NCBI GenBank assembly: GCA_903865435.1
Contig: CAIPJS010000002.1
Location: 1-64,000, forward strand
DNA from: an uncultured Bacteroidota bacterium
Lineage (GTDB): Bacteria; Bacteroidota; Bacteroidia; Chitinophagales; Chitinophagaceae
Length of the DNA stretch: 64,000 bases
Direction: 5' to 3'
Shown: one piece after another, positions 20,113 to 37,256 of the stretch
How the letters are laid out: each line of letters opens with the position of its first letter
How positions within the stretch are numbered: position 1 is the first letter of the stretch
Position numbers and translations under genes: made by a program
The notes under the pieces: generated by a model
The model's input: only the letters and a program-made list of their open reading frames with translations
What the model was told of the DNA's origin: nothing
Database searches by the model: none

Positions 20113-21981
20113 TTATTTAGATTTGGGTTGAATGGCCTTTTTAATTTTAGTAAACAATTCAGTGTTTTCGTAAACGCCATCAAATAAGAAAGATTGATAA
20201 CCATAGCTAAATACTGGCACGGGAATACCCGTGTGGTCATTGGTGGCAAATTGAGCAGTAAGACTTTGTTTTTTATAATCTCCATCATGAAGGGTAAGCC
20301 CACCGGTTTCATGGTCACCAGTAATAATAACAAGAGTGCCTTTGTTTTCATCTGCGTATTGAATTGCTTTGCCAATTAAAGCATCGAAGTCAATCACTTC
20401 TTTAACCACATACTCAATATTGTTAGCATGTCCTCCATAATCTATTTGAGCAGCTTCCAGCATCATAAAAAATTGCTTGCTTTTATTTAATTCAAGAGCA
20501 GCCTTTGTTTTTTCAAACGCATTGCTTAACCAATTACCCCTTCCTTCTTGCATGGACAATCCAGCTTGTGGATCAAGCACCAACATTTTATGATTGGTTG
20601 GAGTTGACAATGCATTGATTGAATGTTCTATTTTATAATTGGGTAATAAGCTGTCAAGTAGTTGGTTGTTTAAAACAGCCACTTGCTTTTTTTGTAGAAT
20701 GCTTATTTTATTTATTTTATTATTCCCCGCACCTGCTAAAATTTGAACCCCAGAATTTTTTAATTGTTGAATAATTTGTATGGAACTATCTCTTTCTTTT
20801 TCATGTGCATAAAAAGCTGCAGGTGTAGCATCAGATACATCCCCACTACTAATTAATCCAACACTATAATTTTTATTTACTAAATAATCGGTAATTAATT
20901 TTAAGGGTTCGCCTTTGGGGTTAATACCTAAATGTCTGTTCTCCATTTTTTCACCCGTAGCTATGGAACTAGCACCTGGTGCCGAATCGGTTACATAATT
21001 ATCTGCAGAGCTAGTTTTTGAAAATCCAATATGCTTTAAATGAAAAGTAGTTAAAGCCCCGCCATTAGCGGTATAGCCCGCATACCACTGTGGTAAACTA
21101 CAACCATCCCCAATCAATAAAATAATTTTAGTAACCGGAAGGTCAACACCATCGTTTTTATATTTAGGTAGATAGACTGCTTGTTTGTTTGACAGACGCA
21201 CATGGGTCGTACTCCATTCATTTAAAAACTTAGCCAAGGATACGATATGATCTGTATTGATATAGTCTACCTTCATTTTTATAAACTGTTGCCAAGCATT
21301 TAAATAATCAGGGCTGGCCCAAAATCTAATTTTTTTACCTTTCTCATGTGTACTACTAATAATAGAATCAATTTTTATACGCTCTGCTTTTACCATGATG
21401 CCTTTACCATTCCAATGCGCGTAATTGGTAAAATCTGCACTGAATAAACCAATTTTAGCTAATTCAGTTACCGAGTAATGTTTATCTAAATCGCCATCAA
21501 AAAAAATGTAATTAGGATAGCTAGCAAACTCATTGGGCTTAGGTCTATTGCCTGTGATGACAATTTTAATTTTACCAGCATTGATGATAGATGAATAGGT
21601 ATCAAGTAGGACTACTAATTTTTGTAGGGTCCTAATGGGGTCTGTCTTAATATCTATGAGTAATTGTAATGGCTTTGTACTATCTGCATAAGGATAACCA
21701 TGATTTGCATTGATTTTATTTTTTAGCGGGTCAAGATAAAATGCTTGAAGGGTTCTTTTCTTTTGAATATCATTAAAAGTATGGCCCACAAATAAGCTAT
21801 CATTAAAATAAAAGATATCTGCTTCTATAGATCCAAAACCATTTTCATATGCTGTAAAAAAGGGTATGGGGTTTTCGTAATCGTTATGAGAATGCGCATT
21901 GGAGGTCGTATAGTTTTGACCAAAAGCAGTATTAAAAATTACAATAGTAAATAGTAATGCAATTCGTTTATTTATTTTCAT
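20113..21981 (-). CDS. Secreted GDPD/PI-PLC-like domain fused to alkaline phosphatase
   Basis: The signal peptide ends AFGQ. Residues about 25-260 form a phosphodiesterase TIM-barrel-like domain with paired His30/His32 (NAHSHND), Glu53 and Asp55 (SIEADI) and His67 (FVGH), as in GDPD and PI-PLC proteins. Residues about 283-610 are an alkaline phosphatase: LLIGDGCSLPQWYAG, the nucleophile motif TDSAPGASSIATG with Ser333, HADFE-like metal segments and TGDHETGGL near the end. One protein could thus cleave a phosphodiester and then release phosphate. It shares a four-base ATGA overlap with the upstream PhnO-like gene. The phosphatase part is certain; activity of the first domain is inferred. Confidence 0.9.
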   Translation of the reverse strand: MKINKRIALLFTIVIFNTAFGQNYTTSNAHSHNDYENPIPFFTAYENGFGSIEADIFYFNDSLFVGHTFNDIQKKRTLQAFYLDPLKNKINANHGYPYADSTKPLQLLIDIKTDPIRTLQKLVVLLDTYSSIINAGKIKIVITGNRPKPNEFASYPNYIFFDGDLDKHYSVTELAKIGLFSADFTNYAHWNGKGIMVKAERIKIDSIISSTHEKGKKIRFWASPDYLNAWQQFIKMKVDYINTDHIVSLAKFLNEWSTTHVRLSNKQAVYLPKYKNDGVDLPVTKIILLIGDGCSLPQWYAGYTANGGALTTFHLKHIGFSKTSSADNYVTDSAPGASSIATGEKMENRHLGINPKGEPLKLITDYLVNKNYSVGLISSGDVSDATPAAFYAHEKERDSSIQIIQQLKNSGVQILAGAGNNKINKISILQKKQVAVLNNQLLDSLLPNYKIEHSINALSTPTNHKMLVLDPQAGLSMQEGRGNWLSNAFEKTKAALELNKSKQFFMMLEAAQIDYGGHANNIEYVVKEVIDFDALIGKAIQYADENKGTLVIITGDHETGGLTLHDGDYKKQSLTAQFATNDHTGIPVPVFSYGYQSFLFDGVYENTELFTKIKKAIQPKSK

Positions 21982-22409: not shown

Positions 22410-22448
22410 TTCAATTTTATTTTTCTAATGTTATGAAATTATAAAGTG

Positions 22449-22467
22449 AATATTACCCCAATATTAA
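22449..22467 (-). promoter_or_regulatory. Possible Pho-box-like 11-bp repeat upstream of phnO/phosphatase genes
   Basis: Read on the minus strand, TTAATATT (22467-22460) and GTAATATT (22456-22449) are spaced exactly 11 bases apart, about 40-58 bases before the phnO start; a TTAAC lies a further nine bases upstream. The 11-bp phase matches PhoB/PhoP-type operators. The region is AT-rich, so chance is possible. Confidence 0.35.
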
Positions 22468-22540
22468 ATTTGTTAAAAAGGTACCATTATTAATACTACA
22501 GTAATATTAAACATGTTAAAATTGCATAAAAATTTAACAT

Positions 22541-25500
22541 ATGCAAGTATTTTTCAAGAAAATGTTAATAGGGGTGATGCTATTAACTTTTTTATTTACA
22601 AAAGTTTTTTCGCAAGACAGTAAAGTGGTTGCAGGAAAAATTTCAAATTCAAATGGAAGTGGAATTTCAGGTGCAGTAATTAGAATATTGCCTTCAAGAA
22701 AGGTGATTACTTCTGACAATACTGGTGAATTCAAAATTACTATTAATGGTTCTGATAAATCATTAGAAATTAGTTCTATTGGATTTATCAGTCAAACAAT
22801 CACAATAAGTAGTTTAAATTCTTATAACATTGTATTAAAAGATGATCCAAATGTTTTAACAGATGTAGTTGTAACTGCATTTGGTATCAAAAAGGAAATT
22901 AAAAGATTGGGCTATGATATTCAAGAATTGAAGGGGGCTGATTTGGCACAATCAAGAGATGCAAACCCAATTAATTCTTTAGTAGGTAAAGTGGCAGGTT
23001 TAACTGTTGGTGGCAACGCAGAAATGTTAGGTCGCCCTGAATTAGTTTTAAGAGGCTCTAAGGATCTTTTATTTGTTGTAGATGGGACTCCTATTAATTC
23101 TGATACTTGGAACATTAGTCCAGATGATATCGAATCTTATACTATTTTAAAAGGTACTAACGCCTCAGCTGTATATGGTTTTAGAGGTTTAAACGGTGCC
23201 ATTGTTATTACTACTAAATCTGGATCTAAAGATAAAAAAGGATGGCAAGTTGATTTCAATAATAGCACTTTTGTTGAGCCAAGCTTCTTAACATTACCAG
23301 AAAGTCAATATGAGTATGGACGTGGTAAAGTTTTTACATATTCTTATGGTGATAGGTTATATGATAATGCACAACGTTTACCAGAATGGGGCCCTCGATT
23401 TGAAGGTCAATTGATTAAACAATACAATAGTCCTTACGATCCATTGACTGGTATTAGAACAGCAACTCCGTGGACTGCAAAGGGTATCAATAACTTCCAA
23501 AACTTCATGCAGACAGGTTTAACAACCAATACAAATATTTCCATGTCTGCTGCAACTGATAGATCTGATATCAGAATTTCAATGTCAAACATGTATCAAA
23601 AAGGTACTGCACCAAATACTAATTTATACACTTATAATTTAGCAATTAAAGGTGGGTATAATATTTCTGATAAATTAAGATTAGAAGCTAGTTTGAACTT
23701 GAACAAGCAAAATTCACCAAATATTCCAGATGTGAACTATGGCCCTAACTCATATATTTACATGTTTAAGGTTTATGGTTCATCAGATTATGATATCAAT
23801 GATTTAAAAGATGTATTTAAAGGACCAACTGGTGTGAAAGGTTTAATGCCATATGCGCAAGAGTATGGTCGTGAAAACAGTGCTGTGTATATGGCAAATT
23901 ATTGGTTACGTACTCATGACAAAACAGATATCAATGGATACGTTAAAGCAACATATAAATTTAATTCTTCTTTAAGTTTAAATCTAAAATCTCAAATTAC
24001 AACTTGGAATCAAACAAGACAAGAGGATGTACCTGCTGGAGCTAATTTACAAACATATACTCCATGGTGGTATTTTGGTTGGTACGGTGATTATCGTTTA
24101 GATAAAAGAAACCTATTTGAAAACAATAATGATTTGACACTTAATTATGATCATAGATTTAAGGATTGGAATGTATCTGGTTTCGCTGGTATTAGCGATC
24201 GTTCCTTTAACTATAATTCATTTTTTGGAACTACTAAAGCATTAGCTGTTCCCGGCTTATATGCATTATCTAACTCCATTAATCCAGCATTGGAATATAC
24301 ATGGGGTTCTAGAATGCAAGTATATAGTGCTTTTTATTCTATGGATTTTACCTATAAAAAATTCTTTACTTTATCACATACTGGTAGGGTAGATCAATTG
24401 TCTACTTTGCCTAATGGAAACAATACTTTTTATTATCCTTCAGTTTCTTTGAGTACAGTATTAACTGATTATTTAGACATTCCAAAGTTTATTTCTTTTG
24501 CTAAGCTTAGAGCATCTTATGCAAATGTGAAAGGTGGATTGACTCAATCTAATGTACCTAGTGCTTTCTCTATGATTTCTGGACAAAGTATCAATGGTGG
24601 CTTATTAGGTTATAGCACTGATTTGTATTCATCTTATGATGGCCCATCTTATAATAATCAAAACTCTTATTCAATTGCAACATATTATAATGGACTTTCA
24701 TCTGTAAACTTTTCTAATACCATTGCAAATCCAAATTTAAAGCCATTTTCAAGAACAAGCTATGAAGGCGGTATTGATTTGAAATTTTTGAAAAATAGAT
24801 TAGGTTTAGATTTTACTTATTTTTCTTCTTTGAATGGACCTCAAATTTATGCATTACCAGTTCCATCTTCTACTGGATATAGTTCTCAAAATGTAAATGG
24901 TATTACTACTAAGAAAGATGGTTTTGAAATTTCATTAAATGGTAGTCCATTGAAATCAGCTAATGGGTTGAACTGGGATGTAATGTTAAACTATTCAACT
25001 TACAAGGAAACTTTAAATGAAATTTATGGCACTGAAAAATATTTAACATTAAATGGACATAACTATACAGTTGGCGAAAGATTGGATGCATTTTATAGCA
25101 CTGGTTATGTTACAGATGGTAAAGGTAACAACATCATAAGTGGAGGTCTTCCATTAAGAGCTCCATCTGATATTGACAACAATAAGTTCTTAGGTTTTAT
25201 GAATCCTGATTTTACATTAGCTTTTGCAAATAAATTCAGTTATAAAAATTTTAACTTCAGCTTCCAACTTGATGGAAGATTTGGTGGTCAAATTTATGAT
25301 GAAGTATACAAGGATGGTATGAATGGAGGAACCGCTATTGAAAGTGCTACAGGTGCTTTTGGTGCTGCTCGTTTAGCAGAATGGCAATCTACTAATAATC
25401 AAACCACAACAGTTGTACCAAAATACATTGCACCAGGTGTTAAAATTGTATCGGGTACCCCAATTTATAAAAATGGATTAATCACCAACTTATCGGCTTT

Positions 25501-25846
25501 GACTTTTGCTAATAATGATGTTGCAAGTACTGTTCAAAACTATCTTTCTTCAGGTCTTGGAGGTATGACAGAGCCATGGATGATAGATCGCACATTCATA
25601 AAATTACGTGAAGTTTCATTTGGTTACACTATGCCTCAATCAATGCTTAAATCTAAAGCTATCAAATCAATTACATTTTCTTTAGTGGGCAAAAACTTAT
25701 TATATTTTGCTGCAAGAAAAGATTTTGATATTGAACAATTTGCTTCTGGTTATAACGCAGGAGATTTATCATTGCAGAATGGTGGAGGTGTTTTACAAAG
25801 TGTTACTTCTAAAAGATTTGGTTTTAACATTAATGTTAGCTTCTAA
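22541..25846 (+). CDS. SusC/RagA-family TonB-linked outer-membrane protein
   Basis: The 1101-residue protein has a signal peptide ending KVFSQ, a carboxypeptidase-regulatory-like domain (about 28-105, ISNSNGSGISGAVIRI), a DVVVTAFG linker, the plug (LLFVVDGTPINSD, NASAVYGFRGLNGAIVITTKSG read in parts) and a long beta barrel ending RFGFNINVSF with a terminal Phe. SusC proteins pair with SusD lipoproteins to import large nutrients. No glycanase, regulator or sigma/anti-sigma gene flanks it. Its neighbours are phosphatase and phosphonate genes, so the cargo may be an organophosphorus compound. That is inference from position. Confidence 0.95.
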   Translation: MQVFFKKMLIGVMLLTFLFTKVFSQDSKVVAGKISNSNGSGISGAVIRILPSRKVITSDNTGEFKITINGSDKSLEISSIGFISQTITISSLNSYNIVLKDDPNVLTDVVVTAFGIKKEIKRLGYDIQELKGADLAQSRDANPINSLVGKVAGLTVGGNAEMLGRPELVLRGSKDLLFVVDGTPINSDTWNISPDDIESYTILKGTNASAVYGFRGLNGAIVITTKSGSKDKKGWQVDFNNSTFVEPSFLTLPESQYEYGRGKVFTYSYGDRLYDNAQRLPEWGPRFEGQLIKQYNSPYDPLTGIRTATPWTAKGINNFQNFMQTGLTTNTNISMSAATDRSDIRISMSNMYQKGTAPNTNLYTYNLAIKGGYNISDKLRLEASLNLNKQNSPNIPDVNYGPNSYIYMFKVYGSSDYDINDLKDVFKGPTGVKGLMPYAQEYGRENSAVYMANYWLRTHDKTDINGYVKATYKFNSSLSLNLKSQITTWNQTRQEDVPAGANLQTYTPWWYFGWYGDYRLDKRNLFENNNDLTLNYDHRFKDWNVSGFAGISDRSFNYNSFFGTTKALAVPGLYALSNSINPALEYTWGSRMQVYSAFYSMDFTYKKFFTLSHTGRVDQLSTLPNGNNTFYYPSVSLSTVLTDYLDIPKFISFAKLRASYANVKGGLTQSNVPSAFSMISGQSINGGLLGYSTDLYSSYDGPSYNNQNSYSIATYYNGLSSVNFSNTIANPNLKPFSRTSYEGGIDLKFLKNRLGLDFTYFSSLNGPQIYALPVPSSTGYSSQNVNGITTKKDGFEISLNGSPLKSANGLNWDVMLNYSTYKETLNEIYGTEKYLTLNGHNYTVGERLDAFYSTGYVTDGKGNNIISGGLPLRAPSDIDNNKFLGFMNPDFTLAFANKFSYKNFNFSFQLDGRFGGQIYDEVYKDGMNGGTAIESATGAFGAARLAEWQSTNNQTTTVVPKYIAPGVKIVSGTPIYKNGLITNLSALTFANNDVASTVQNYLSSGLGGMTEPWMIDRTFIKLREVSFGYTMPQSMLKSKAIKSITFSLVGKNLLYFAARKDFDIEQFASGYNAGDLSLQNGGGVLQSVTSKRFGFNINVSF

Positions 25847-25875
25847 TTAAATAATAAAAGATAAATTATAATTTT

Positions 25876-27465
25876 ATGAAAATAAATTTCAAAAATTTAC
25901 TACTTTCTGTAGTAATTATTACAGTAGCCTTTACCAGCTGTCAAAAAGGCGACTTAATATCAAACCCAAATGTGGCTGCTGAATCTTCAACCATACCTAC
26001 TTCATTAATTTTGAATCATATAACTGCGAATTTAATGAAAGAAGAAGAGCCGATTATTTCTCAAGTATATAAACAAGATCAATTTATTGTTTCCAACTAC
26101 CCTTATTATTTTGGTTCTAATTCATATAGTTTTGGACCAAGTGCTAATATGTACGATCAAATCAAATATTGTACAAAATTAGAAGAACAAGCTTTAAAAC
26201 AATATAACAGCAAAACAAACAATCCTTATTTTGCATTGAGTAAGTTTTTTCAAGCCTATTCTTTAATTTGGTATACTCAAAGAGTGGGAGATATTCCTGC
26301 AAGCCAAGCAGTAAATTCTAATTATACAAATCCTAAATATGATACGCAACATGATGTGTATAAATATGCATTAAGTTTACTGGATAGTGCAAATATTTTA
26401 TTATCAGTACAAATTACAAGTTCTAACGCAAGCACTAAAGTGGATGCATCTGGTGATATTTTTGGTTTGACTTATTTACAATGGCAGAAAGTTATTAATA
26501 CTTATAAATTAAGGACTTTAATAAGTTTAAGTAAAAGAGCTGATGACAATGCTGATTTAAATATTAAATCTCAATTTGCAACTATCATCAATAATCCAAC
26601 TCAGTATCCTATAATGTCTTCTACAAGCGATAACTTAGTTTATAAGTATAATTCCATTAATTATTATCCACCCAATAGAGCAGGGTATGTTCCATACAAT
26701 TTATGTGAAAACATAAGTACCACGTATATGAATTTGTTAACTACAAATAAGGATCCAAGAACATTTGTTGTTGCCACACCAGCTAGTGCTCTATTATCTT
26801 CTACAACAGTAGCAGATTTTAATGCATATGTAGGTGAGGACAACTCAAAATCTCAAAGTTTTATGAGTAATTTTACAGCAGATGGCAAACATGCTTCATT
26901 GAATTGGAATAGATATTTTTCATCTGCCAGTGGGGCAAATGCTGAACCTTATACAATTTTAGGTTACGCTGAATTATGTTTCAATATTGCAGAAGCTGCT
27001 AATAGAGGTTGGATCACAACTCAATCTGCAAGCACTTGGTATGGTAAAGGAGTAGATGCATCATTATCTATCTATGGTATTACAGATGGTAAATTGTTAA
27101 CTATTGGAAATGGTGATGGAACTAAAACAAATATTGGAACGGTAACAGCAGATGTGGTTACTTTTAAATCAAAAATTGCATATGCTGGAGATAATGCAAC
27201 AGGTTTATCACAAATTTTAACTCAAAAATATGTTGCATTTTTTATGAATTCTGGTTTCGAAGCTTATTACAATTGGAGAAGAACTGGTGTTCCTACTTTT
27301 AGTCAGAATGGTCCTGGTATAGGAACTACAGACAATATGATTCCTTATCGTTGGCAATATCCTAATGATGAAAAAACTTCAAATTCTACAAATGTAAACG
27401 CAGCCATTTCATCTCAATTTGGAGGTACAGACGATTTGACTGGTAAAATGTGGTTAATTAAATAG
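25876..27465 (+). CDS. SusD-like nutrient-binding lipoprotein (SusD-like_2 type)
   Basis: The 529-residue protein has a lipobox ending FTSC (Cys22) and the helical TPR-like plan of the RagB/SusD superfamily. The segments ISQVYKQDQFIVSNYPYYFG, FQAYSLIWYTQRVGDIPASQA, YAELCFNIAEAANRG and the C-terminal YRWQYPNDEKTSN are typical of the second SusD subfamily. It caps the SusC barrel from the cell surface and binds the ligand. It follows susC by 29 bases and is followed by a strong terminator, so the pair forms a two-gene operon. Confidence 0.93.
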   Translation: MKINFKNLLLSVVIITVAFTSCQKGDLISNPNVAAESSTIPTSLILNHITANLMKEEEPIISQVYKQDQFIVSNYPYYFGSNSYSFGPSANMYDQIKYCTKLEEQALKQYNSKTNNPYFALSKFFQAYSLIWYTQRVGDIPASQAVNSNYTNPKYDTQHDVYKYALSLLDSANILLSVQITSSNASTKVDASGDIFGLTYLQWQKVINTYKLRTLISLSKRADDNADLNIKSQFATIINNPTQYPIMSSTSDNLVYKYNSINYYPPNRAGYVPYNLCENISTTYMNLLTTNKDPRTFVVATPASALLSSTTVADFNAYVGEDNSKSQSFMSNFTADGKHASLNWNRYFSSASGANAEPYTILGYAELCFNIAEAANRGWITTQSASTWYGKGVDASLSIYGITDGKLLTIGNGDGTKTNIGTVTADVVTFKSKIAYAGDNATGLSQILTQKYVAFFMNSGFEAYYNWRRTGVPTFSQNGPGIGTTDNMIPYRWQYPNDEKTSNSTNVNAAISSQFGGTDDLTGKMWLIK

Positions 27466-27490
27466 TTTTAAGTATAGGGAGAATGTTTAC

Positions 27491-27520
27491 AGTGGGGAGT
27501 GTTGAGCTCCCCACTTTTTT
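27491..27520 (+). terminator. Strong intrinsic terminator after SusCD
   Basis: A perfect nine-base stem AGTGGGGAG/CTCCCCACT with a seven-base loop is followed by six T residues, 26 bases after the SusD stop. It cleanly ends the SusCD operon and excludes the in-frame upstream start of the next gene. Confidence 0.9.
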
Positions 27521-27542
27521 AATTTATAATAAAAACGGGACT

Positions 27543-28364
27543 ATGAAAATTATAGTGTTATATTTTTCAATGATTATTATTGCTTCTACTAGCCATGCTC
27601 AAATTGCAGACAGTAGTAGTAGAGAAGTAAAATTACAAGGCGCCGTAAATTTTAGAGATATTGGTGGCTATACTACAAAGAATGGCAGAAAGGTTAAAAT
27701 GGGCCTATTATACCGCTCCGCAGCCTTAAATACTTTAACAGATGCCGACCTAGCTAAATTAGAAGCCCTGCACATAAAATATGATTTTGATTTTAGAGGC
27801 CCTTATGAAGTAAAAACTGCACCTGATAAAATACCATCAGGCACTACGCGTATTTCTTTACCAGCGGGTAGTGAAAATGTAGGAGATAGCAACTACATGA
27901 AGAATATGGGTAAGTATATGAAATCGGATTCTTTTTTAATTAGTTTTTATACTGTTTTGACACCATTTAAAGACCGTTATACACCTTTGTTTGATAGTTT
28001 AGTATCCAATACTAAAGCAAGTCCAATGCTATTTCATTGCACTGCTGGTAAGGATAGAACAGGTATTGCAGCTGCTTTAATTTTGTATGCTTTAGGCGTG
28101 GATGAACAAACCATTTTTGATGACTACGAAGCCACTAACTATTATAGACGAAATGAAAATGCTAAATCCATAGCACAAATGACCAAATATTATGGTTTGG
28201 ATGAAAAAACTGCGAATAATTTAATGGGAGCTAAAAAAGAATATATAGCAGCTACTTTTGCTACCATAAGAAGTAAATATAGCAGTATAGATACTTATCT
28301 AGAAAAAGAATTGGGGTTGACACCTCTAATAATTAAAAAGCTAAGAGCTATCTATACCAATTAG
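27543..28364 (+). CDS. Secreted tyrosine/serine phosphatase (Y_phosphatase3 type)
   Basis: The ATG at 27543 was chosen because it follows the SusCD terminator and gives a signal peptide ending SHAQ; an upstream in-frame ATG lies before the terminator hairpin. The 273-residue protein has the family opening VNFRDIGGYTTKNGRKVK and MGLLYRSAAL, and the CX5R signature HCTAGKDRTG with Cys166 and Arg172. Such bacterial enzymes dephosphorylate phosphotyrosine, phosphoserine or phosphoinositides. Exported and placed in a phosphorus locus, it may release phosphate from organic esters. Confidence 0.9.
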   Translation: MKIIVLYFSMIIIASTSHAQIADSSSREVKLQGAVNFRDIGGYTTKNGRKVKMGLLYRSAALNTLTDADLAKLEALHIKYDFDFRGPYEVKTAPDKIPSGTTRISLPAGSENVGDSNYMKNMGKYMKSDSFLISFYTVLTPFKDRYTPLFDSLVSNTKASPMLFHCTAGKDRTGIAAALILYALGVDEQTIFDDYEATNYYRRNENAKSIAQMTKYYGLDEKTANNLMGAKKEYIAATFATIRSKYSSIDTYLEKELGLTPLIIKKLRAIYTN

Positions 28365-28409
28365 TATTGGATCTGATTTTGTTTAATTAATAGAGTAATA
28401 TCTAAAACG

Positions 28410-28442
28410 CTTAACATTAAGTTAATATATAGTTAACTATTT
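28410..28442 (+). promoter_or_regulatory. Pho-box-like triple 11-bp direct repeat upstream of phosphonate operon
   Basis: TTAAC, TTAAT and TTAAC occur at 28411, 28422 and 28433, each preceded by C or G, in exact 11-base phase, 60-95 bases before the DUF5690 start. Period and core resemble PhoP/PhoB operators (TTAACA-type repeats in Bacillus). No binding data exist for this genome, so the site is proposed from pattern alone. Confidence 0.5.
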
Positions 28443-28502
28443 CATTACATTGTTTTAAATGAAATAAATAGATTGTTACTTAGGTTTGATAAGCAAATTT
28501 CA

Positions 28503-29774
28503 ATGATCAATCTAAGTTTTAAAAAAGACAATCAAGCTGGAGCTTCCATCTATATCGCTATTGTATGCTTTTGTACCTATGCGTGTGTGTATGCCTTTAG
28601 AAAGCCTTTCACCATTGGTTTGTACGAAGATATGCCTAGTTATTTGGGCATTGAATATAAAAACTTATTAGTCATTGCACAGGTCTTAGGCTATACAGCC
28701 AGTAAAGTATTTGGCATCAAATTTATCTCAGAATTAAAAAATATTGGAAGGGGAAAATTAATTCTACTATTGATTGTTTTATCATGGATTCCTTTGTTAT
28801 TATTTCCTGTTTTACCAGCACCTCTTAATATATTTTGCTTTTTTTTAAATGGGTTCCCTTTAGGGATCATATGGGGCATCGTATTTTCTTTTGTGGAAGG
28901 CAGAAGAGCGACTGATTTTCTTGGTGCTGCATTGGCAGTAAGTTTTATTGTATCGTCTGGTGTTGTTAAATCTATTGCAAAGTGGATTCAAATGAGTTTT
29001 AATATTTCGGAAATGTGGGTACCTTTTTATACTGGCTTAGTTTTTATTTTGCCCATCATTTTATTTATTTATTTACTTGAAAAAATTCCTGCCCCAACCC
29101 CTGAAGAAATTGAATTAAAAGCACCAAGGCTACCCATGACCAAATTGGATCGCCATTCTTTTTTTAAGGAATTTAAAATAGGCATCATTGCTTTTGTTTT
29201 TATTTATTTAATACTGACTTTGTTTAGAGATTTAAGAGACAATTTTGCTGCAAATATTTGGAACGATTTGGGTTATGGAAACAATGCAAGTGTATTTACC
29301 AATACCGAATTACCCATTGCTTTTATTGTATTGATTTTGATTGCAAGTATGATTGTTATCAAAAAAAATAAACTTGCTTTTTTAATAAGTATTGTAATTA
29401 TTATGTTAGGATTTATAATAGTTGGATTAAGTACCTTATTTTTTAAAATGAATATTTTAAACGGATACCATTGGATGTTATTAGTGGGCCTTGGCTTGTA
29501 TATGGGTTATATACCATTTAATTCATTGTTATTTGACCGAATGATTGCTACTTTCAGAATCAAAGGCAATGTTGGCTTTCTTATTTATTTATTGGATTCT
29601 TTTGGATATTTGGCTTCAGTTATTGTTATTAGTATCAAAGGAACTGCACATTTACAATTGAATTGGGCAGAATTTTATTCTAAGGGCGTCTTATATTTTT
29701 CTATCCTTGGCTTATTGGCTTCTTTAGCAGCATACTTATATTATGCCAAAAAAATTAAAACATTAAACTATTAA
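28503..29774 (+). CDS. DUF5690 family MFS-like membrane protein, candidate phosphonate transporter
   Basis: The ATG at 28503 is preferred to an in-frame TTG 30 bases upstream. The 423-residue protein has about 12 hydrophobic helices and begins with a CFCTYACVYAFRKPFTIG-like segment seen in organophosphate/hexose-phosphate antiporter-like proteins, with FNGFPLGIIWG-type glycine-rich helices and VEGRRATDFLGA in the central part. DUF5690 has no assigned function. It is the first gene of a tight run with four phosphonate-associated genes (spacing three bases to the next), so transport of a phosphonate across the inner membrane is a reasonable inference. Confidence 0.8.
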   Translation: MINLSFKKDNQAGASIYIAIVCFCTYACVYAFRKPFTIGLYEDMPSYLGIEYKNLLVIAQVLGYTASKVFGIKFISELKNIGRGKLILLLIVLSWIPLLLFPVLPAPLNIFCFFLNGFPLGIIWGIVFSFVEGRRATDFLGAALAVSFIVSSGVVKSIAKWIQMSFNISEMWVPFYTGLVFILPIILFIYLLEKIPAPTPEEIELKAPRLPMTKLDRHSFFKEFKIGIIAFVFIYLILTLFRDLRDNFAANIWNDLGYGNNASVFTNTELPIAFIVLILIASMIVIKKNKLAFLISIVIIMLGFIIVGLSTLFFKMNILNGYHWMLLVGLGLYMGYIPFNSLLFDRMIATFRIKGNVGFLIYLLDSFGYLASVIVISIKGTAHLQLNWAEFYSKGVLYFSILGLLASLAAYLYYAKKIKTLNY

Positions 29775-29777
29775 TAC

Positions 29778-30905
29778 ATGAGTGACAAAACAGCAATCGT
29801 AGTAGGGGCTGGGATCTTGGGAATGGCTACTGCCCGTGCTTTGGCTTTAAAAGGGTACAAAGTTACGATTTTTGAAAAATCACAACAATCCCTTGGAGCC
29901 TCTATTAGAAACTTTGGTATGTTATGGCCTATTGGTCAACCTGATGGAAAATTGTATGATCGAGCCATCAGGTCTAGAGAAATTTGGAAAGAATATTTAA
30001 CCAATGCAAAAATTAATTTTGACCCTTGTGGTAGCTTGCATTTGGCCTATGACAAAGAGGAGCAGGATGTGTTGGAAGAATTATATGAACATTTTACAAA
30101 ACACAATAGGCCCGTTACTTTAATGCAACCCAATACCATCTTGGAAAAATTTAATGGTATTAATGGTGAAAATTTAAAAGCAGGTTTATTTAGTAGTGAT
30201 GAAACCATTATAGATCCTAGAGAGGGCATTAAAAATTTACCCGCTTATTTAAAAGATTATTATAACATTAAAATTATTTGGGGCACAGCCATCACCAATG
30301 TAACAACCAATACTGTATGGTCTTTTAAAACCAAATACAATGCCGACTTAATTTGTATTTGTTCTGGAGCCGATTTTGAAACACTTTATCCAGAAAATTT
30401 TAAAGAATTGCCCATTATTAAGTCAAAATTGCAAATGATGCGATTTGTGCCAAATGACCCAAATTATAAAATTGGAACTTCTATTTGTGGTGGTCTATCC
30501 TTATTGCATTATAAAAGTTTTACCGCATCAAAATCTTTAGATATTTTAAAAGCAAAAATTGACTTAGAACTTCCAGAATACATTAAAAACGGAATTCATG
30601 TCATGGTATCACAAAACCATCAAGGGGAATTAACCGTAGGGGATTCACACGAATATGCTTTAGATTTTGAACCCTTTGACAAACATACTGTCAACGAATT
30701 GATTTTGAAATATTTAAAAAAGTTAATTCATATTGATAATTGGACATTGCAACAATCATGGAATGGGGTGTATCCCATGATGACCAATGGCACAACTGAT
30801 TTGCTTTTAAAAGTGGAGCCAGGCGTATACATTATCAATGGAATTGGTGGAAATGGTATGACATTGTCTTTTGGTTTTGCAGAAGAAGCTGTAAACAAAA
30901 TTTAA
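29778..30905 (+). CDS. TIGR03364-type FAD-dependent oxidoreductase of phosphonate operons
   Basis: The 375-residue DAO-superfamily flavoprotein has an N-terminal dinucleotide motif GAGILG, then the subfamily block GASIRNFGMLWPIGQPDG, and a C-terminal FAD motif INGIGGNGMTLSFGFAEE. The TIGR03364 clade is defined by co-occurrence with phosphonatase-like hydrolases, and members are thought to deaminate aminophosphonates oxidatively, 2-aminoethylphosphonate or N-methyl or hydroxy derivatives. Here the next genes are an HD oxygenase and exactly that phosphonatase-like hydrolase, so the context agrees. The product would be a phosphono-aldehyde. Confidence 0.88.
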   Translation: MSDKTAIVVGAGILGMATARALALKGYKVTIFEKSQQSLGASIRNFGMLWPIGQPDGKLYDRAIRSREIWKEYLTNAKINFDPCGSLHLAYDKEEQDVLEELYEHFTKHNRPVTLMQPNTILEKFNGINGENLKAGLFSSDETIIDPREGIKNLPAYLKDYYNIKIIWGTAITNVTTNTVWSFKTKYNADLICICSGADFETLYPENFKELPIIKSKLQMMRFVPNDPNYKIGTSICGGLSLLHYKSFTASKSLDILKAKIDLELPEYIKNGIHVMVSQNHQGELTVGDSHEYALDFEPFDKHTVNELILKYLKKLIHIDNWTLQQSWNGVYPMMTNGTTDLLLKVEPGVYIINGIGGNGMTLSFGFAEEAVNKI

Positions 30906-30916
30906 ATTTTAAACGT

Positions 30917-31474
30917 ATGAATAATATCGTTGATTTTATTATTGATGTATTTTTAAAAAAAGGGCATGAATTATACGGCGGGGAAGCTGTAACACAGTTG
31001 GAGCATGGCTTACAGGCTGCCCATTTTGCAAAAGAATCAAATGCTTCTGAAAATTTAATTGCTGCTGCCTTAATGCATGATATTGGACATTTATTGCATG
31101 ATTTACCAGATGATGCCACCAATAATGGCATTGATGACGTTCATGAAGCTTTAGGTGCTGAATTTTTAATCCAATATTTCAAAGAAGAAGTAGTGGAAGC
31201 AGTTAAGTTGCATGTACCTGCTAAAAGATACCTATGCTTGGTAGATCCCGAATATTATGAAGCATTATCATCCGTTTCAAAAGCAAGTTTAATATTACAA
31301 GGAGGCATTATGTCCATGGAAGAGAAAAATAATTTTGAATTGAATGAATATTTTAAAGAAGCAGTTGCATTAAGAAGATGGGACGATCAAGCTAAAATCC
31401 CCAATTTAAAGGTGGATGATATCTATACTTATAGAAGCATATTAGAACAATCATTATTAAAAAATAGTTTATGA
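30917..31474 (+). CDS. PhnZ/TmpB-like HD-domain mixed-valent diiron oxygenase
   Basis: The 185-residue protein carries every residue expected for the PhnZ group: the lid pair Tyr20 and Glu23 (YGGE), iron ligands His30, His54-Asp55, His76, His99 and Asp156 (in RRWDD), and Lys103 after the fifth ligand. PhnZ cleaves the C-P bond of 1-hydroxy-2-aminoethylphosphonate to glycine and phosphate, and TmpB does the analogous reaction on the trimethylated compound. These enzymes need an alpha-hydroxylated substrate, normally made by PhnY* or TmpA. No such 2-oxoglutarate hydroxylase is present in the window. The stop overlaps the next start (ATGA). Confidence 0.88.
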   Translation: MNNIVDFIIDVFLKKGHELYGGEAVTQLEHGLQAAHFAKESNASENLIAAALMHDIGHLLHDLPDDATNNGIDDVHEALGAEFLIQYFKEEVVEAVKLHVPAKRYLCLVDPEYYEALSSVSKASLILQGGIMSMEEKNNFELNEYFKEAVALRRWDDQAKIPNLKVDDIYTYRSILEQSLLKNSL

Positions 31475-32148
31475 GCATAAAGATGATCGTATTTGATATG
31501 GCAGGAACGACTATTGATGAAGACAATATTGTATATAAAACTTTACATAAAAGCATCAATCAATATGGTGTTACAGTTGATTTGTCTGCTGTTTTAGAGA
31601 TAGGGGCAGGGCAAGAAAAATTAACTGCCATCAAAGACATTGTTTCAAAGTATGGCACACAAGAAGATTTGCTAAAGGCTAATGATATGTATCATTATTT
31701 TATCAATCATCTTCAAACTGCCTATGAAGAATTTGATATTCAAGCCATGCAGCATGCTGAAACTGTGTTGACCTATATAAGAAGCAAAAATATATTGGTT
31801 GTATTAAATACAGGCTATGACCGAGCTACTGCACAATTTATTTTAAATAAGATTAATTGGGTACAACTATATCATTATGATTTATTGGTATCCGCTACAG
31901 ATGTTAAGAACAATAGACCATCACCTGATATGATTCATTTTGCAATGAATTTATTTTCTATCAATGATCCTAAGGAGGTAGTAAAAATTGGGGACTCCAA
32001 AATCGATATCGAAGAAGGCCAAAACGCCCATTGTTTATATAGTATTGGTATTACTACTGGTGCACAAACTAAAGCACAGTTAGCTGAGGCAAAACCTGAT
32101 CAAATTATTGATAACCTAAACGATTTAATTAGTTTTTTAAATATTTAA
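31471..32148 (+). CDS. Phosphonatase-like HAD hydrolase (TIGR03351 type)
   Basis: The 225-residue HAD protein opens with the phosphonatase version of motif I, FDMAGTTID (Asp9, Ala11, Gly12, Thr13), instead of DxDxT. Lys50 in GAGQEK lines up with the Schiff-base lysine of PhnX, and Arg149 in NNRPSPDM replaces the usual motif III lysine, as in phosphonoacetaldehyde hydrolase. Motif IV is KIGDSKIDIEEG. PhnX hydrolyses phosphonoacetaldehyde to acetaldehyde and phosphate; the natural substrate of the TIGR03351 clade is not settled. It overlaps the HD oxygenase gene by four bases, indicating translational coupling. Confidence 0.88.
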   Translation: MSIKMIVFDMAGTTIDEDNIVYKTLHKSINQYGVTVDLSAVLEIGAGQEKLTAIKDIVSKYGTQEDLLKANDMYHYFINHLQTAYEEFDIQAMQHAETVLTYIRSKNILVVLNTGYDRATAQFILNKINWVQLYHYDLLVSATDVKNNRPSPDMIHFAMNLFSINDPKEVVKIGDSKIDIEEGQNAHCLYSIGITTGAQTKAQLAEAKPDQIIDNLNDLISFLNI

Positions 32149-32151
32149 TAT

Positions 32152-32595
32152 ATGTTGGTAAAAAATTGGAAAATTAGAAAGGCAAACTTAATTGATGTAA
32201 ATTATTTCCATCAATCTATAGAACAAATTCATTCAATGAAAATACAGTTTGATGTATTTACTGAACAATTTAAAAAGAAGTTAAAAAATAAAAACTGTTT
32301 ACTATATGTAATTGAAACTACATTAGGTAGCCAAATTGGTTGTATCTGCTGTGAAAAGGAAGAAAGTTTCTTAACCAGTAGACCCATTATACAAATAAAA
32401 GAATTTTACATTTCTCCAGCCTATAGAAAATTAAATATTGCGGATGATTTATTTTTATTTATTTATGAAAAGTCTATTCAATTAGGCATGGATAAGATAG
32501 AAGTACTTTGCAATTTAAATTCTACGACCACACAAAACTTTTATTCACAAAAAAAGTTTATTCCAGTTAAAAAATTGTATGTAAAAAGTATCTAA
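32152..32595 (+). CDS. GNAT-family acetyltransferase, last gene of phosphonate operon
   Basis: The 147-residue GNAT protein starts three bases after the phosphonatase-like gene. It keeps the IQIKEFYISPAYRKLNIADDL acetyl-CoA region (read in parts) and a C-terminal FYSQKKF motif. The layout resembles PhnO, but the glycine-rich loop is degenerate (RKLNIADD instead of RGxGxG), so it is a diverged relative of the PhnO-like gene at 22 kb. It may acetylate an aminophosphonate or its product. It ends one base from the convergent phosphatase gene. Confidence 0.8.
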   Translation: MLVKNWKIRKANLIDVNYFHQSIEQIHSMKIQFDVFTEQFKKKLKNKNCLLYVIETTLGSQIGCICCEKEESFLTSRPIIQIKEFYISPAYRKLNIADDLFLFIYEKSIQLGMDKIEVLCNLNSTTTQNFYSQKKFIPVKKLYVKSI

Positions 32596-32596
32596 T

Positions 32597-34009
32597 TTAC
32601 TTTATAATTGTAAAATTATCTACCACTTTACCTGAGCTTGCAATTTGTTTAAATGTAAATATATTTTTTTCAATTGTCACATAACTTAATGAATTGTCTG
32701 TTGAGAAAAATTTGTCAGTAAATGGCTGCCATGAATTGGGCATATTGGTTTGTTCTGGATTGTATAAATCTTGACCACCTGCACCTGTTACTATATATAC
32801 AACTCCTTTTGGCTTTTTATTTTTAATCCCATCAAAGTTTTTATCTAATACCCAATCTCCGCCTACTTGTTCTCCTTTTCTTTTTGTTGTAGATGCTATC
32901 TCTTTTTTTGAAGATGTATCTGGCTTAAAGGTTAATGGGAATGATCTTTGATAATTATGTACATGCCCATTAAATACTATATCTACCTTGCCAGCTTCAA
33001 AAATAGGAGATAATAACCTCATATGTTGTTCTTCAAAATGTTCTTTGGAGGAGTTAAAACCTGGTTGGTGAAACATCACAAAACGCCACTGTGCACTGGC
33101 TGCTTTTTTTAAATCTTCTTTCACCCATTCTTGCAAATCTTTATTAGTCCAATCAACATAATAATCTGCATCAATCACGGTCCAATGCGCATTGCCATAA
33201 TCATAGGAATAGGTAGTCATCTTTGGGTAGGCTTTTTGAGCAGCGGTATAAAAAGCATTTTTATTTGTTTCATTGCCTTTTAGCATTGGTATCAGTGGCG
33301 AACCTTCTTTATAATCTGGACCATTCAAAGGTTGTTCCCAGAAATAATAATAAGACAAAGCATCAGGTGTTTTGTCCATATCTCTATCATTGGCATCATG
33401 ATTGCCTACAGAGGCAAAGAATGGAATTTTTCTCATTAATGGTGCACCACTGCTGTCATTTTTATCGGCATTGTATATGGGCCAAAATTTTGTTGTATAA
33501 TCTTTAATCAAACCACTATTGTATACGATGTCTCCTGGAACTGCCACAAAATCTGGATTCAGATCATACATGATATTGGCTAATTTCTTTTGGTTTTTGG
33601 TTAATGCACCAATATCACCTATTACCACAAATTTATAATTTTGATTCTTAGTTTTAGGCGCATGTGCAGTTGATTCAAATACTAATTTTTTATTCTTAGA
33701 TACTCTATAAGTAAAATCAATACCACTTTCTAGTTGTGCTAATGTGGCATGATATACTACAAATGGACTGTAATTTTTTATATTTACTTTATTGAAATAA
33801 ATATTTTTACTATTTATCCAACTATTTTTTGTCTTTACTTCTACTTTCCATTCACTAGTTGTATCAGCACAATGCCATAACAAAGACAAATTTTTAGGAT
33901 TTGCATCATATCCAATTTGAAGATAAGGAGCAGTGATAAAATCTTTTTGAGCTGCTAACTGGTTGATTGAAAATAGAACACAAAATAAAAATGTTAATAA
34001 ATTTTTCAT
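32597..34009 (-). CDS. Secreted purple-acid-phosphatase-like metallophosphoesterase
   Basis: The 470-residue protein has a signal peptide ending LAAQ, an N-terminal fibronectin-III-like domain (about 25-115, APYLQIGYDANPKNLSLLWH) and a metallophosphoesterase domain. The metal motifs are GDIGAL, GDIVYNSG, GNHDAND, HQPGFNS and GHVHNYQRS, which follow the purple acid phosphatase order. Such enzymes hydrolyse phosphomonoesters outside the cytoplasm. It is the last gene of a reverse-strand trio beginning with the propeller-phosphoesterase fusion, with only nine bases to its upstream neighbour. Confidence 0.92.
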   Translation of the reverse strand: MKNLLTFLFCVLFSINQLAAQKDFITAPYLQIGYDANPKNLSLLWHCADTTSEWKVEVKTKNSWINSKNIYFNKVNIKNYSPFVVYHATLAQLESGIDFTYRVSKNKKLVFESTAHAPKTKNQNYKFVVIGDIGALTKNQKKLANIMYDLNPDFVAVPGDIVYNSGLIKDYTTKFWPIYNADKNDSSGAPLMRKIPFFASVGNHDANDRDMDKTPDALSYYYFWEQPLNGPDYKEGSPLIPMLKGNETNKNAFYTAAQKAYPKMTTYSYDYGNAHWTVIDADYYVDWTNKDLQEWVKEDLKKAASAQWRFVMFHQPGFNSSKEHFEEQHMRLLSPIFEAGKVDIVFNGHVHNYQRSFPLTFKPDTSSKKEIASTTKRKGEQVGGDWVLDKNFDGIKNKKPKGVVYIVTGAGGQDLYNPEQTNMPNSWQPFTDKFFSTDNSLSYVTIEKNIFTFKQIASSGKVVDNFTIIK

Positions 34010-34018
34010 AATTTTAAT

Positions 34019-34522
34019 TTAAAATGTAACGCCAAATTGTAATCCTATACCTACTGAGGCAGGTGAACTATTTCCAAATCTTGCTGGAATAGGGACGGAA
34101 ACCCAATAACTATTCATTTTGGTTTTATAGAGTACCTTATTAAAAACCAAATTGGTACCATATCGGCCTCCTGTCTCAAAGGCAAGCCTAGTAAGTACAT
34201 TAAAACCTTTGGGGTATCTAAAGATAAGACCCGGTTGAATAGACAAATTACTTGTTTTAGTTATCCCTTTTGTTGAATTGAGTGTTGGAACTATTTCAAT
34301 ACTATAAGCCAACTTATCTGATTTAATAATATTAATTCCAATGGGAAAGCCAACAGTATAGGAATGGTCAAAATTGTAAGCAGGTAAATTTGAAGAAATG
34401 GTAAGTAATGGATGATTGATGCTAAAATAAGCGGCTACTTTAGGGTATTCATTTGAATTCTGGGCATTTACATATCCATTGAGTATAAAAAAGCTAAGTA
34501 TAGTTAAAATAGAATTTTTCAT
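34019..34522 (-). CDS. Small outer-membrane beta-barrel-like protein
   Basis: The 167-residue protein has a signal peptide ending YVNAQ and mature sequence with alternating polar and hydrophobic residues, Gly turns and a terminal Phe (GLQFGVTF), as in small eight-stranded outer-membrane barrels. No family is recognised. It sits nine bases upstream of the purple-acid-phosphatase-like gene and 28 bases downstream of the phosphoesterase fusion, so it belongs to that operon and may anchor or assist the phosphatases. Confidence 0.75.
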   Translation of the reverse strand: MKNSILTILSFFILNGYVNAQNSNEYPKVAAYFSINHPLLTISSNLPAYNFDHSYTVGFPIGINIIKSDKLAYSIEIVPTLNSTKGITKTSNLSIQPGLIFRYPKGFNVLTRLAFETGGRYGTNLVFNKVLYKTKMNSYWVSVPIPARFGNSSPASVGIGLQFGVTF

Positions 34523-34550
34523 TCATTATTTAGTTAAGCCGCTGATTGAA

Positions 34551-37256
34551 TTATTTCTTTTCTTTTTTATAATGTGCTTTTCTCATATCTTCTTCGTCAT
34601 CCATATCTGGACCTTTCTCTACTTTTCTCCAATCCACATCTCTGTTGTAACGCTTCATGGCGTTGGTCGTATTGAATATATCTTTAGAGGGAAATACTAA
34701 GCTGTAAGGCTTATAATTAGGTTTATCGGTAAAAAAGTCTTCCAATAAACTAGCGGTAGCATCGTATTGATTCACATAGGGAACATCTAAAATATTATAA
34801 ATTACTTTTAATATTGAACCAAAATTAGCATGTGTATTGGAAGTATAATTTCTTTTTACATAAGGTCCTGCCATCATTAAAATACTTCTGTGCGCATCTA
34901 TATGGTCTACACCCCCTTGAGGATCATCTTCGGTAACGATCACCAACATATTTTTCCAATAGGGCGTTCTAGATAAAAAATGTAAAATTCTACCTACTGC
35001 TAAATCATTGTCTGCAACATAAGATTCATGATAGGGATAGCCATCTTTAGGTCTTGGATCGGCAGTATGGTCATTGGGTACCTGCATGGTGATTAAGCTT
35101 GGCAATGCTTTGTGTTTGTTGAGCCACAATTTTTTAAACTCAGTTTCGAATTGCTCCATTCTAAATTGATCTGGAATATTGCAATTAAATCCTGCGTAAT
35201 TATGACTTGTATTTTTCCATAAAGCTTTTTGCATGGGCACCATTACTGCATGTCCACTTCCAGTGGCTGTATCATTCCATTCTTCTCTATTGTGCGCTGT
35301 TTCATTGGCTTCACCAAAATTATAGAAAGGAACATTTTTTCTTTCCAATGCTTCCCATAGCCCACCTCTTTCTGCATAATCCTCAGGATCTATGCTTCCA
35401 GTGGTTCCCGGGAATCTTCTACCAGAAGCATTTGAAAATATTTTTGCCGATTTATTCACACTTGAATTGGTTTCTACCCATTCGTTGGGAATCACGCCCA
35501 TCATCCAATGATGTCCATGGATAGAAGCGTCACCATCACAATAAAAATTATCCGAAAAGGCAAATTCTTGTGCCAACTTTGAATGATTGGGTGTAATGTC
35601 AAAACCTACCGCATTTTTACTTTGAAAGCCCATTCTTACATGATTACCAAATCTTGCTATACTTGAATCACCTCGGCCTGTTTTTAATTGACCTAGCACT
35701 TCATCATAAGTTCTATTTTCTTTGGTGATGTATACTATATATTTAATGGGGCTTTTACGAATGCCGGCTTTAATGGGTAATGGGTTTTTTACATCATCTA
35801 CCTTAGCAATCGTTTTATACGTATTGTTTAAAGTTGTTTTGGTATAATTTTTTAATTCCTCTAAAGTGGGCACTTTTATTTTTTGGAAACTACCTAATTG
35901 AATGTCGCCAATATAAGTACCTTGTTCTGGTTTTTTAAAACCAATACCACCATTAGGCCCTGCACCATAACCTCTACAAGAAATGACATACATTTCTTTT
36001 TCGTCATTACTCAACCTGATTTTTGAGGTACCCCATCCGCTTGGAATAAATCCAATAGTCTTTCTTTTCTCAAGATCAATCACTGCTACTGCATTAAATC
36101 CTAATAAGGCAACATACAATGTTTTCTCGTCCTTGGTCATGGTCATGCCAAAAGGAAGATAGCCTCTATATTGATCAATGGCATCATTCATTTTAATAGG
36201 AATACTTCCAACTATTTTATGATTTTTATAATCAATGATAGAAATATTATCATTCGTAGCATTGGATACATAGGCCAATTCATTACCTATTGTTATTGAG
36301 TTTGGACTTGCGCCTCCTACTACCTCAGCGCCCTCAATCATTTCCCCAATTTGATAGCCTGTTTTAAATTTATCTACTACTTGATTTGTACTAAGATCAA
36401 TGTTAAAAACACTCATTGCATTAGGTGATAAGGGGTCGCCAACGCCAGGTATCAATCTTCCATTATACGTAATACCATTTATTGATTCTTTTGTGTTGTT
36501 TCCATAAGGATGCCAAGGCATCAGCATGGTATCATAATTTTCCTTGGTAATATCTGGAATGATTGGGTAATCATACATGCCTACATTGGCCACCATGACG
36601 AATTCTTTGTTGGGGCTTAATGCTAAATTAAAAGGTTGACGTCCTGTTTTAATGGAAGCTTTTATTTTTTTTGTTGCCAAGTCAATCCTAACCAATCTAA
36701 AATTGCCTCTATCTAAAACCAACAATTCATTTTCCTTTTCATTGTAGATGATATCTGAAGTAAAGCTGTCGTCGTAACTAATTCCATCAATAGTTCCATT
36801 TAAGGAAATAGAATCTATTTTTTTGAACTGTTTGATATCATAAACCATCACGGCACCTGCATCACCGGCACTTAAATACACTAAGTCATTATTATTACTT
36901 GCAAAGGTGATACCCAAAAAAGATCCCTTTTTTAAAATGGTATCAATTTTTTTATCATAACTAGGAACTCTAATGGCTTTTAGATTATCATTGTTGATAA
37001 TTGTTATGACGCCATTGTGTAAGGTCACTGTTTTAGTTCCATCGGGTGAAACGGCCATCCCAAAAGGGCTACGTGTGATTTGAATAGTAGCACCGGCTGG
37101 GGTAATGTATCTGCCACTTGGTAAAACTGTGTGATTGTTTTTATCAATATTGGTGTATTCTTTATCACCAGGCACTGATAAATAATTGTAAGTTTTTTGA
37201 GCAATCAATGTATTGGATAGTACAATTAATTGCAAGTATAATAATATACTTTTCAT
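34551..37256 (-). CDS. YncE-like beta-propeller fused to phosphoesterase (PLC/acid phosphatase) domain
   Basis: The 901-residue secreted protein (signal peptide ending LIAQ) has a propeller of YncE/lactonase type over about residues 40-480 (repeats such as NKEFVMVANVGMYDYP and KTLYVALLGFNAVAVIDLEK). A phosphoesterase domain follows from about 500: ITKENRTYDEVLGQL, AFSDNFYCDGDASIHGHHWM and VTEDDPQGGVDHIDAHRS, with the acidic and His metal ligands of that family. Family members cleave phosphodiesters or phosphomonoesters. It heads a three-gene reverse operon, and 11-bp repeats lie upstream. Fusions of this kind recur in Bacteroidota; the propeller role is unknown. Confidence 0.9.
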   Translation of the reverse strand: MKSILLYLQLIVLSNTLIAQKTYNYLSVPGDKEYTNIDKNNHTVLPSGRYITPAGATIQITRSPFGMAVSPDGTKTVTLHNGVITIINNDNLKAIRVPSYDKKIDTILKKGSFLGITFASNNNDLVYLSAGDAGAVMVYDIKQFKKIDSISLNGTIDGISYDDSFTSDIIYNEKENELLVLDRGNFRLVRIDLATKKIKASIKTGRQPFNLALSPNKEFVMVANVGMYDYPIIPDITKENYDTMLMPWHPYGNNTKESINGITYNGRLIPGVGDPLSPNAMSVFNIDLSTNQVVDKFKTGYQIGEMIEGAEVVGGASPNSITIGNELAYVSNATNDNISIIDYKNHKIVGSIPIKMNDAIDQYRGYLPFGMTMTKDEKTLYVALLGFNAVAVIDLEKRKTIGFIPSGWGTSKIRLSNDEKEMYVISCRGYGAGPNGGIGFKKPEQGTYIGDIQLGSFQKIKVPTLEELKNYTKTTLNNTYKTIAKVDDVKNPLPIKAGIRKSPIKYIVYITKENRTYDEVLGQLKTGRGDSSIARFGNHVRMGFQSKNAVGFDITPNHSKLAQEFAFSDNFYCDGDASIHGHHWMMGVIPNEWVETNSSVNKSAKIFSNASGRRFPGTTGSIDPEDYAERGGLWEALERKNVPFYNFGEANETAHNREEWNDTATGSGHAVMVPMQKALWKNTSHNYAGFNCNIPDQFRMEQFETEFKKLWLNKHKALPSLITMQVPNDHTADPRPKDGYPYHESYVADNDLAVGRILHFLSRTPYWKNMLVIVTEDDPQGGVDHIDAHRSILMMAGPYVKRNYTSNTHANFGSILKVIYNILDVPYVNQYDATASLLEDFFTDKPNYKPYSLVFPSKDIFNTTNAMKRYNRDVDWRKVEKGPDMDDEEDMRKAHYKKEKK

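Follow-up and report, generated by a model that had tools for sequence, protein, structure and literature searches.

SusCD pairs mostly serve glycans. In Flavobacterium, Lidbury et al. (2020; PMC8115612) described SusCD complexes that are induced only by phosphate depletion, named PusCD, in loci (PUS) that include a GDPD-PhoA fusion and ‘phosphonate-degrading enzymes’ beside the pair; PusD1 and PusD2 carry PF07980/PF14322, and the authors regard PusD as polyphyletic. For phosphonates, passage across the outer membrane is presumed to proceed via porins such as PhoE (2023 review, PMC10574752), and further along the route PbfD1, a member of TIGR03364, yields phosphonoacetaldehyde by oxidation of N-methyl-AEP and AEP (PMC10590968). 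Here, we use the window, by which we mean the whole stretch of 64,000 nucleotides analysed, to describe a block of 13 genes (20113-37256) that we read, with a probability of about 0.68, as a PUS-type organic-phosphorus acquisition locus with a phosphonate catabolic cassette attached.

All 13 genes (Table 1) are real and correctly placed, one of them needing a shifted start, and they run as two minus-strand genes, then eight plus-strand genes (22541-32595) in the order SusC, SusD, Y_phosphatase3, DUF5690, HpnW, Phn-HD, PhnX-like and GNAT, and then three more on the minus strand. The five plus-strand genes from DUF5690 to the second GNAT form an operon (28473-32595), and the SusC-GNAT segment has a GC content of 0.316, against 0.356 outside the block. 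A preliminary description had listed the phosphatase fusion, a GNAT, the SusCD pair, a CX5R phosphatase, the five-gene operon, a purple-acid-phosphatase-like enzyme and a propeller-phosphoesterase, each of which lies where it was reported; to these we add a 167-aa open reading frame (34019-34522), which probably belongs to the system, judging by homologues that adjoin SusD or Y_phosphatase3 at L039, L062 and L067. The order of the eight plus-strand genes, including the position of the second GNAT (32152-32595), is kept on three other MAG contigs (L036, L039 and L045), which argues that the grouping is not due to chance. Two of these, L036 and L039, additionally retain PhoA_GDPD-GNAT upstream, the fusion being 72% identical and in the same position. 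In these closest relatives a secreted AP-superfamily phosphodiesterase (L036:13742-14833, L039:13263-14369) separates Y_phosphatase3 from DUF5690; in the window this interval is just a short gap, and PropPE is found at the far end of the block instead. Two culturable relatives, Flavobacterium hibernum and Pinibacter soli, have the locus in the same layout.

Table 1. Features of the block, with the match or other evidence on which each assignment is based
Feature	Position	Strand	Evidence
GDPD_2 + PhoA alkaline phosphatase fusion, periplasmic	20113..21981	-	PF00245 3.8e-39; PF13653 7.7e-8
PhnO-like GNAT acetyltransferase, divergent from SusC	21978..22409	-	PRK10146 1.7e-29, 103 bits
SusC-type TonB-dependent outer-membrane transporter	22541..25846	+	TIGR04056 420 bits, cutoff 368
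SusD-like_2 surface lipoprotein, lipobox Cys22, Y branch	25876..27465	+	PF12771 9.4e-50
Terminator-like hairpin with T tract, gap between susD and phosphatase gene	27491..27515	+	10-pair stem
Secreted Y_phosphatase3, PTP fold	27543..28364 (ORF as called from 27483)	+	PF13350 8.4e-67
DUF5690 inner-membrane transporter, MFS fold	28473..29774	+	PF18943 1.4e-152
HpnW/TIGR03364 FAD-dependent aminophosphonate oxidoreductase, PbfD family	29778..30905	+	402.6 bits, cutoff 285.1
Phn-HD oxygenase, PhnZ/TmpB-like	30917..31474	+	TIGR03276 210 bits, cutoff 214.6
PhnX-like HAD phosphonatase	31471..32148	+	TIGR03351 204 bits, cutoff 218.9
Second GNAT, weakly PhnO-like	32152..32595	+	PRK10146 6e-6
Secreted purple-acid-phosphatase-like metallophosphoesterase	32597..34009	-	PF00149 1.1e-17; PF14008 4e-5
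Small exported protein, 167 aa, probably outer-membrane	34019..34522	-	synteny; without Pfam match
Exported beta-propeller + phosphoesterase (PropPE)	34551..37256	-	PF04185 4.9e-7

Upstream of the block lies a separate plus-strand cluster (3587-20079) that encodes a TonB-dependent receptor with DUF4249 and MG2-domain proteins, a 3-keto-disaccharide hydrolase, a sugar MFS protein, an SDR, a CoA-transferase III, an enoyl-CoA hydratase, a solute-binding protein, a 6-phosphogluconolactonase-like protein, DUF4432 and ThuA. Downstream, an exported protein (37544-39469) whose B-repeats (Flg_new_2) are of a divergent InlB type stands between the island and an Lrp/xanthine-dehydrogenase-like cluster.

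Judged by alignment, the cassette holds the catalytic residues for aminophosphonate cleavage. HpnW scores above the TIGR03364 family cutoff, and the amine-removing enzyme of the hydrolytic aminophosphonate pathway is thus present by family score; a PDB search with HpnW returned nothing at 1e-10. The PhnX-like protein matches phosphonoacetaldehyde hydrolase in the PDB at 2.7e-10, and both its nucleophile motif D-x-A-G-T-T (DxAGTT) and GxxK50 are invariant in 28/28 homologues, GxxK50 corresponding by inspection to the Schiff-base lysine of PhnX (GLLK53) at a point where the HMMER alignment is gapped. Phn-HD matches TmpB (6npa, 6e-36) and PhnZ (4mlm, 4e-31); H30, H54, D55, H76, H99 and D156, together with E23, K103 and Q128, are invariant in 27 homologues, and the complete diiron ligand set of an HD oxygenase is present. 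These family calls are profile scores, with Phn-HD and the PhnX-like protein just below their cutoffs. Profile searches recognised no partner 2-oxoglutarate alpha-hydroxylase (PhnY/TmpA) within the block, so the substrate of Phn-HD would need prior alpha-hydroxylation, and the bacterium's own genome contains no match to PhnW (TIGR02326) or to the C-P lyase protein PhnJ (PF06007). The GNAT beside SusC (21978-22409) has as its best NCBIfam model PRK10146, an aminoalkylphosphonate N-acetyltransferase, at 103 bits against a cutoff of 142. For DUF5690, on which a literature search found no paper, the AlphaFold model (pLDDT 89) has a clear MFS fold, which makes an inner-membrane step likely; its Foldseek matches (sialin, G6PT, PiPT, GLUT and NorA, with TM about 0.6) pick out no substrate class, and we propose it from this model as a candidate importer of aminophosphonates across the inner membrane.

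Among the exported enzymes, the GDPD_2-PhoA fusion matches a PDB alkaline phosphatase (2w5v) at 2e-54, and Y_phosphatase3 matches 8dhi (9e-37) and MptpB (1ywf, 8e-17), its P-loop HCTAGKDR (CX5R; pattern HCxAGKDRTG) being invariant in 61 homologues. The real start of Y_phosphatase3 is likely M21 (base 27543), which is likewise invariant in 61 homologues, rather than 27483, from where the called reading frame begins upstream of the hairpin at 27491-27515 and reads through it. The propeller of PropPE resembles 1l0q and YncE; the predicted model of the whole protein has a mean pLDDT of 73, and its top matches cover the propeller only. Another GDPD-PhoA fusion (37% identity; L148:7382-9298) directly adjoins a distant SusCD, as in Flavobacterium johnsoniae PUSII.

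The association between transporter and cassette extends well beyond the window. SusD and HpnW were each searched for in 395 genomes of the class, taking as close those SusDs above 300 bits (n=19) and as distant the 59 next-best matches listed. Of the 19 close SusDs, 14 have HpnW within 10 kb, against 2 of the 59 distant ones (Fisher 1.2e-9), with identical counts for DUF5690, and HpnW is present in 17/19 genomes with a close SusD against 19/376 without, these co-occurrence counts being inflated by kinship among the genomes. Viewed from the cassette, SusD-like_2 is found within 10 kb of 16 of the 36 HpnW genes and is absent near the other 20, so the cassette works without SusD-like_2 as well. 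In one genome (G380), a phosphonate cluster with the phosphodiesterase (L156) and a Y-branch SusCD (L111) lie on different contigs, one on C1 and the other on C8, and cassette and SusCD can thus be unlinked.

The window SusD belongs to PF12771, with 3mx3, 3ejn and 4ler as its closest solved structures and Chitinophagaceae as the source of the nearest SusD loci. In a tree built by a quick method, with SH-aLRT as the only supports, it falls in a clade of 99 rows (support 100) with two branches: P, of 20 rows (support 85), and Y, of 79 rows that include the window (support 99). This division of a PF12771 SusD clade, with P within phosphonate clusters and Y accompanied by Y_phosphatase3, is newly found. 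The loci comprised 80 from a scan of named genomes and 40 further regions fetched, and their neighbourhoods were read from mechanical ORFs and BLAST against the window's proteins, an approach that misses remote or non-homologous phosphonate genes. Read in this way, at least two phosphonate genes lie beside 16/20 branch-P loci and 0/20 control SusDs (Fisher 1.5e-7), and 19/20 have either such a set of phosphonate genes or the characteristic phosphodiesterase or PropPE, again against 0/20. The gene after SusD in branch P is a secreted phosphodiesterase, for which a PDB search gave no match, or PropPE, whose orthologues of 57-66% identity are adjacent or close to SusD in 8/20 loci; at that position branch Y has a phosphatase most similar to enzymes of the MptpB type. 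The window mixes the two, having a Y-type pair and a PropPE orthologue. The comparison of close SusCD homologues that the preliminary description had proposed thus ties the close clade to phosphonate genes (14/19 against 2/59; 16/20 against 0/20).

Within branch Y, Y_phosphatase3 accompanies SusCD in 63/77 loci, a pairing with SusD for which a literature search found no paper. Phosphonate genes adjoin SusCD in 13/77, which alone is not significant against 0/20 controls (p=0.067); these cases fall at about ten separate places in the tree, and, as a 20-kb neighbourhood is about 0.4% of a 5-Mb genome, so many hits would hardly be expected by chance. Under parsimony, the phosphonate label takes 16 changes over the whole tree. 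Some relatives of the locus have PhnA (phosphonoacetate hydrolase, above cutoff) and HpnZ next door, replacing or beside parts of the cassette. That such varied phosphonate routes share one SusCD clade suggests that the transporter is what unites them. The GNAT found next to SusC in the window adjoins SusCD in 13/80 loci, and DUF5690 occurs elsewhere in the genome in 38/42 Y-branch genomes searched, seven of them with a local cassette.

Taken together, these features suggest the following route. At the cell surface, SusD would bind an organophosphorus conjugate, which SusC, driven by TonB, would then move into the periplasm; there the exported Y_phosphatase3, GDPD-PhoA, purple-acid-phosphatase-like enzyme and PropPE would cut phosphate or phosphonate esters. 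The freed aminophosphonate would be carried over the inner membrane by DUF5690, and in the cytoplasm HpnW may oxidise N-methyl-AEP or AEP to phosphonoacetaldehyde, whose C-P bond the PhnX-like protein would cleave via its Schiff-base lysine; Phn-HD would oxidatively cleave alpha-hydroxyphosphonates and the GNATs would acetylate aminophosphonates. We infer both a phosphonate or phosphate ester as the SusCD cargo and the substrates proposed for the exported enzymes. Porins should suffice for free AEP, and a TonB-driven pair therefore suggests that the ligand is either very dilute or a larger ester, perhaps an organophosphorus conjugate too large for porins. More tentatively, and with the odds somewhat against it, the whole SusCD clade might be dedicated to phosphonate conjugates, those of branch P being esters cut by PropPE or the small AP-superfamily phosphodiesterase, and the Y ligand also bearing phosphomonoesters removed by the PTEN/MptpB-like phosphatase, as might be the case for protist AEP-bearing glycosylinositol phospholipids or phosphonoglycans. 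The comparison does not establish the ligand class named in the preliminary description, because branch Y, where the window falls, goes primarily with a secreted Tyr-type phosphatase, has phosphonate genes in just 13 of 77 loci and carries SusD residues unlike those of P.

The best-surviving alternative, which we nonetheless consider unlikely, holds that the block houses two systems: a SusC-SusD-Y_phosphatase3 triad that imports a phosphomonoester, such as an inositol phosphate or phospho-oligosaccharide, and a phosphonate operon that is a separate phosphorus-stress module in the same island. The triad does stand alone in 52 Y-branch loci, with a GNAT as the only other recurrent neighbour, and the affinity of Y_phosphatase3 to MptpB-type phosphatases would suit such a role. 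In Y-branch SusD, W132, R136, R221 and Y274 hardly vary, and P has other residues there, a hint that the two branches may bind different ligands. The hairpin separates susD from the genes downstream and may reduce their expression, unless a promoter of their own serves them; a hairpin at the same position is found at 54/75 Y, 14/20 P and 12/20 control loci, and, being common in clade and control SusCDs alike, appears ordinary for susCD operons. Against a division into two systems stand the sister branch P, with its cassette in 16/20 loci, the joining of phosphonate genes to branch Y in about ten lineages, the PhnO-like GNAT that remains beside SusC in several Y-only loci, and the PhnX-like gene, which is present elsewhere in 30/35 Y-branch genomes that lack an adjacent cassette.

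A second alternative is that the cassette is substrate-induced and phosphate-independent, and that the locus serves carbon or nitrogen nutrition rather than phosphorus scavenging. Hydrolytic phosphonate pathways of this type are known (PMC10574752), and no clear Pho box was found in the SusC promoters of the clade or in the bacterium's own genome. A pair of TTAAC motifs 11 bases apart was considered as a candidate and rejected, being found in the SusC promoters of controls (4/19) as well as of branches Y (20/71) and P (6/20), and rarer genome-wide than its reversed pattern (10 matches to TTAACN6TTAAC against 35). One of the ten lies upstream of the phosphonate operon (28421-28436); seven others cluster within 4.6 kb on L151 (own genome, contig C58, 24-43 kb), a region that looks phage-like, with many small ORFs and a resolvase-like ORF. 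A sigma-70 promoter scan gave results at shuffle level, the sigma-70 model not fitting Bacteroidota promoters. The block's four genes for exported phosphatases or phosphoesterases, one of them with a fusion architecture that is phosphate-starvation-induced in Flavobacterium johnsoniae, make the nutritional reading very improbable, and we infer that phosphate starvation may control the block.

As for glycans, among the 25 commonest neighbour families at Y-only loci (113 immediate-neighbour proteins; single occurrences uncounted), GNAT domains lead with 9 and GH1, the sole glycosidase family, appears in 2; the corresponding list of 25 for control SusDs features sigma factors, FecR, GH92 and GH20. 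Glycan genes are therefore no recurrent neighbours of the close SusCD homologues, contrary to what the preliminary description had named as the outcome that would count against it. Its remark that the block is free of polysaccharide lyases and glycosidases also holds, as profile searches matched no glycosidase, lyase or other CAZyme between 20113 and 37256. The nearest glycosidase is a retaining alpha-galactosidase-like gene (1425-3404) about 17 kb upstream. A conventional polysaccharide utilisation locus, in which SusCD would import a glycan and the phosphatases would be incidental or strip phosphate decorations, could draw on the established role of most SusCD pairs and on this alpha-galactosidase, but is scarcely credible for a block without CAZymes whose nearest clade is tied to phosphonate genes and has a glycosidase family in only those 2 of 113 neighbours.

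Phosphonates make up a sizeable share of organic phosphorus, and the SusCD clade spans several Bacteroidota families alongside phosphonate genes, with selective import testable using purified SusD. Such a clade would extend a transporter family almost always read as glycan importers by a branch for phosphorus. If the more tentative reading of a clade dedicated to phosphonate conjugates is true, phosphonates would have an outer-membrane import route of their own in place of the presumed porins (PMC10574752). As a rule for annotation, wherever Y_phosphatase3, PropPE or HpnW accompanies a PF12771 SusD from this clade, the label polysaccharide utilisation locus should be withheld.

Among described systems, PUSI and PUSII of Flavobacterium johnsoniae (PMC8115612) are the nearest in kind, with SusCD beside phosphomonoesterase and phosphodiesterase genes as in the window, and PhoA1 of PUSII (Fjoh_3249), a GDPD_2-PhoA beside PusCD2, has the same architecture as the window's fusion. 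The gene-content features of a PUS are found in the block, namely a SusCD-like pair (TIGR04056, PF12771) with adjoining phosphomonoesterase and phosphodiesterase genes and no CAZymes, and the CAZymes co-located with SusCD that mark a PUL are not. The idea of a SusCD pair for organophosphorus compounds, put forward in the preliminary description, is thus supported by linkage and is not new as a kind, PusCD having been described in 2020. The window SusD is of a different subfamily from PusD1 and PusD2 (PF12771 rather than PF07980/PF14322), which does not exclude a PUS because PusD is polyphyletic. PUS loci are, by expression data, induced on phosphate depletion, and the window locus is described from its sequence. 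Unlike PhnZ/TmpB systems (4mlm, 6npa), whose metal ligands and K and Q residues are conserved in Phn-HD, the block has no recognised PhnY/TmpA partner, and HpnW is likened to the PbfD/TIGR03364 oxidoreductases (PMC10590968) by family membership only. The HpnW-PhnX-PhnHD operons of Achromobacter (PMC11203657) contain the same three catabolic genes, likewise with no PhnW in the operon, but take up their substrate through the PhnSTU ABC transporter, whereas the window has DUF5690, SusCD and exported hydrolases. What sets the window apart from the PUS loci as presented in the main text of PMC8115612 are the Y_phosphatase3 triad and the HpnW/PhnHD/PhnX/DUF5690 cassette.
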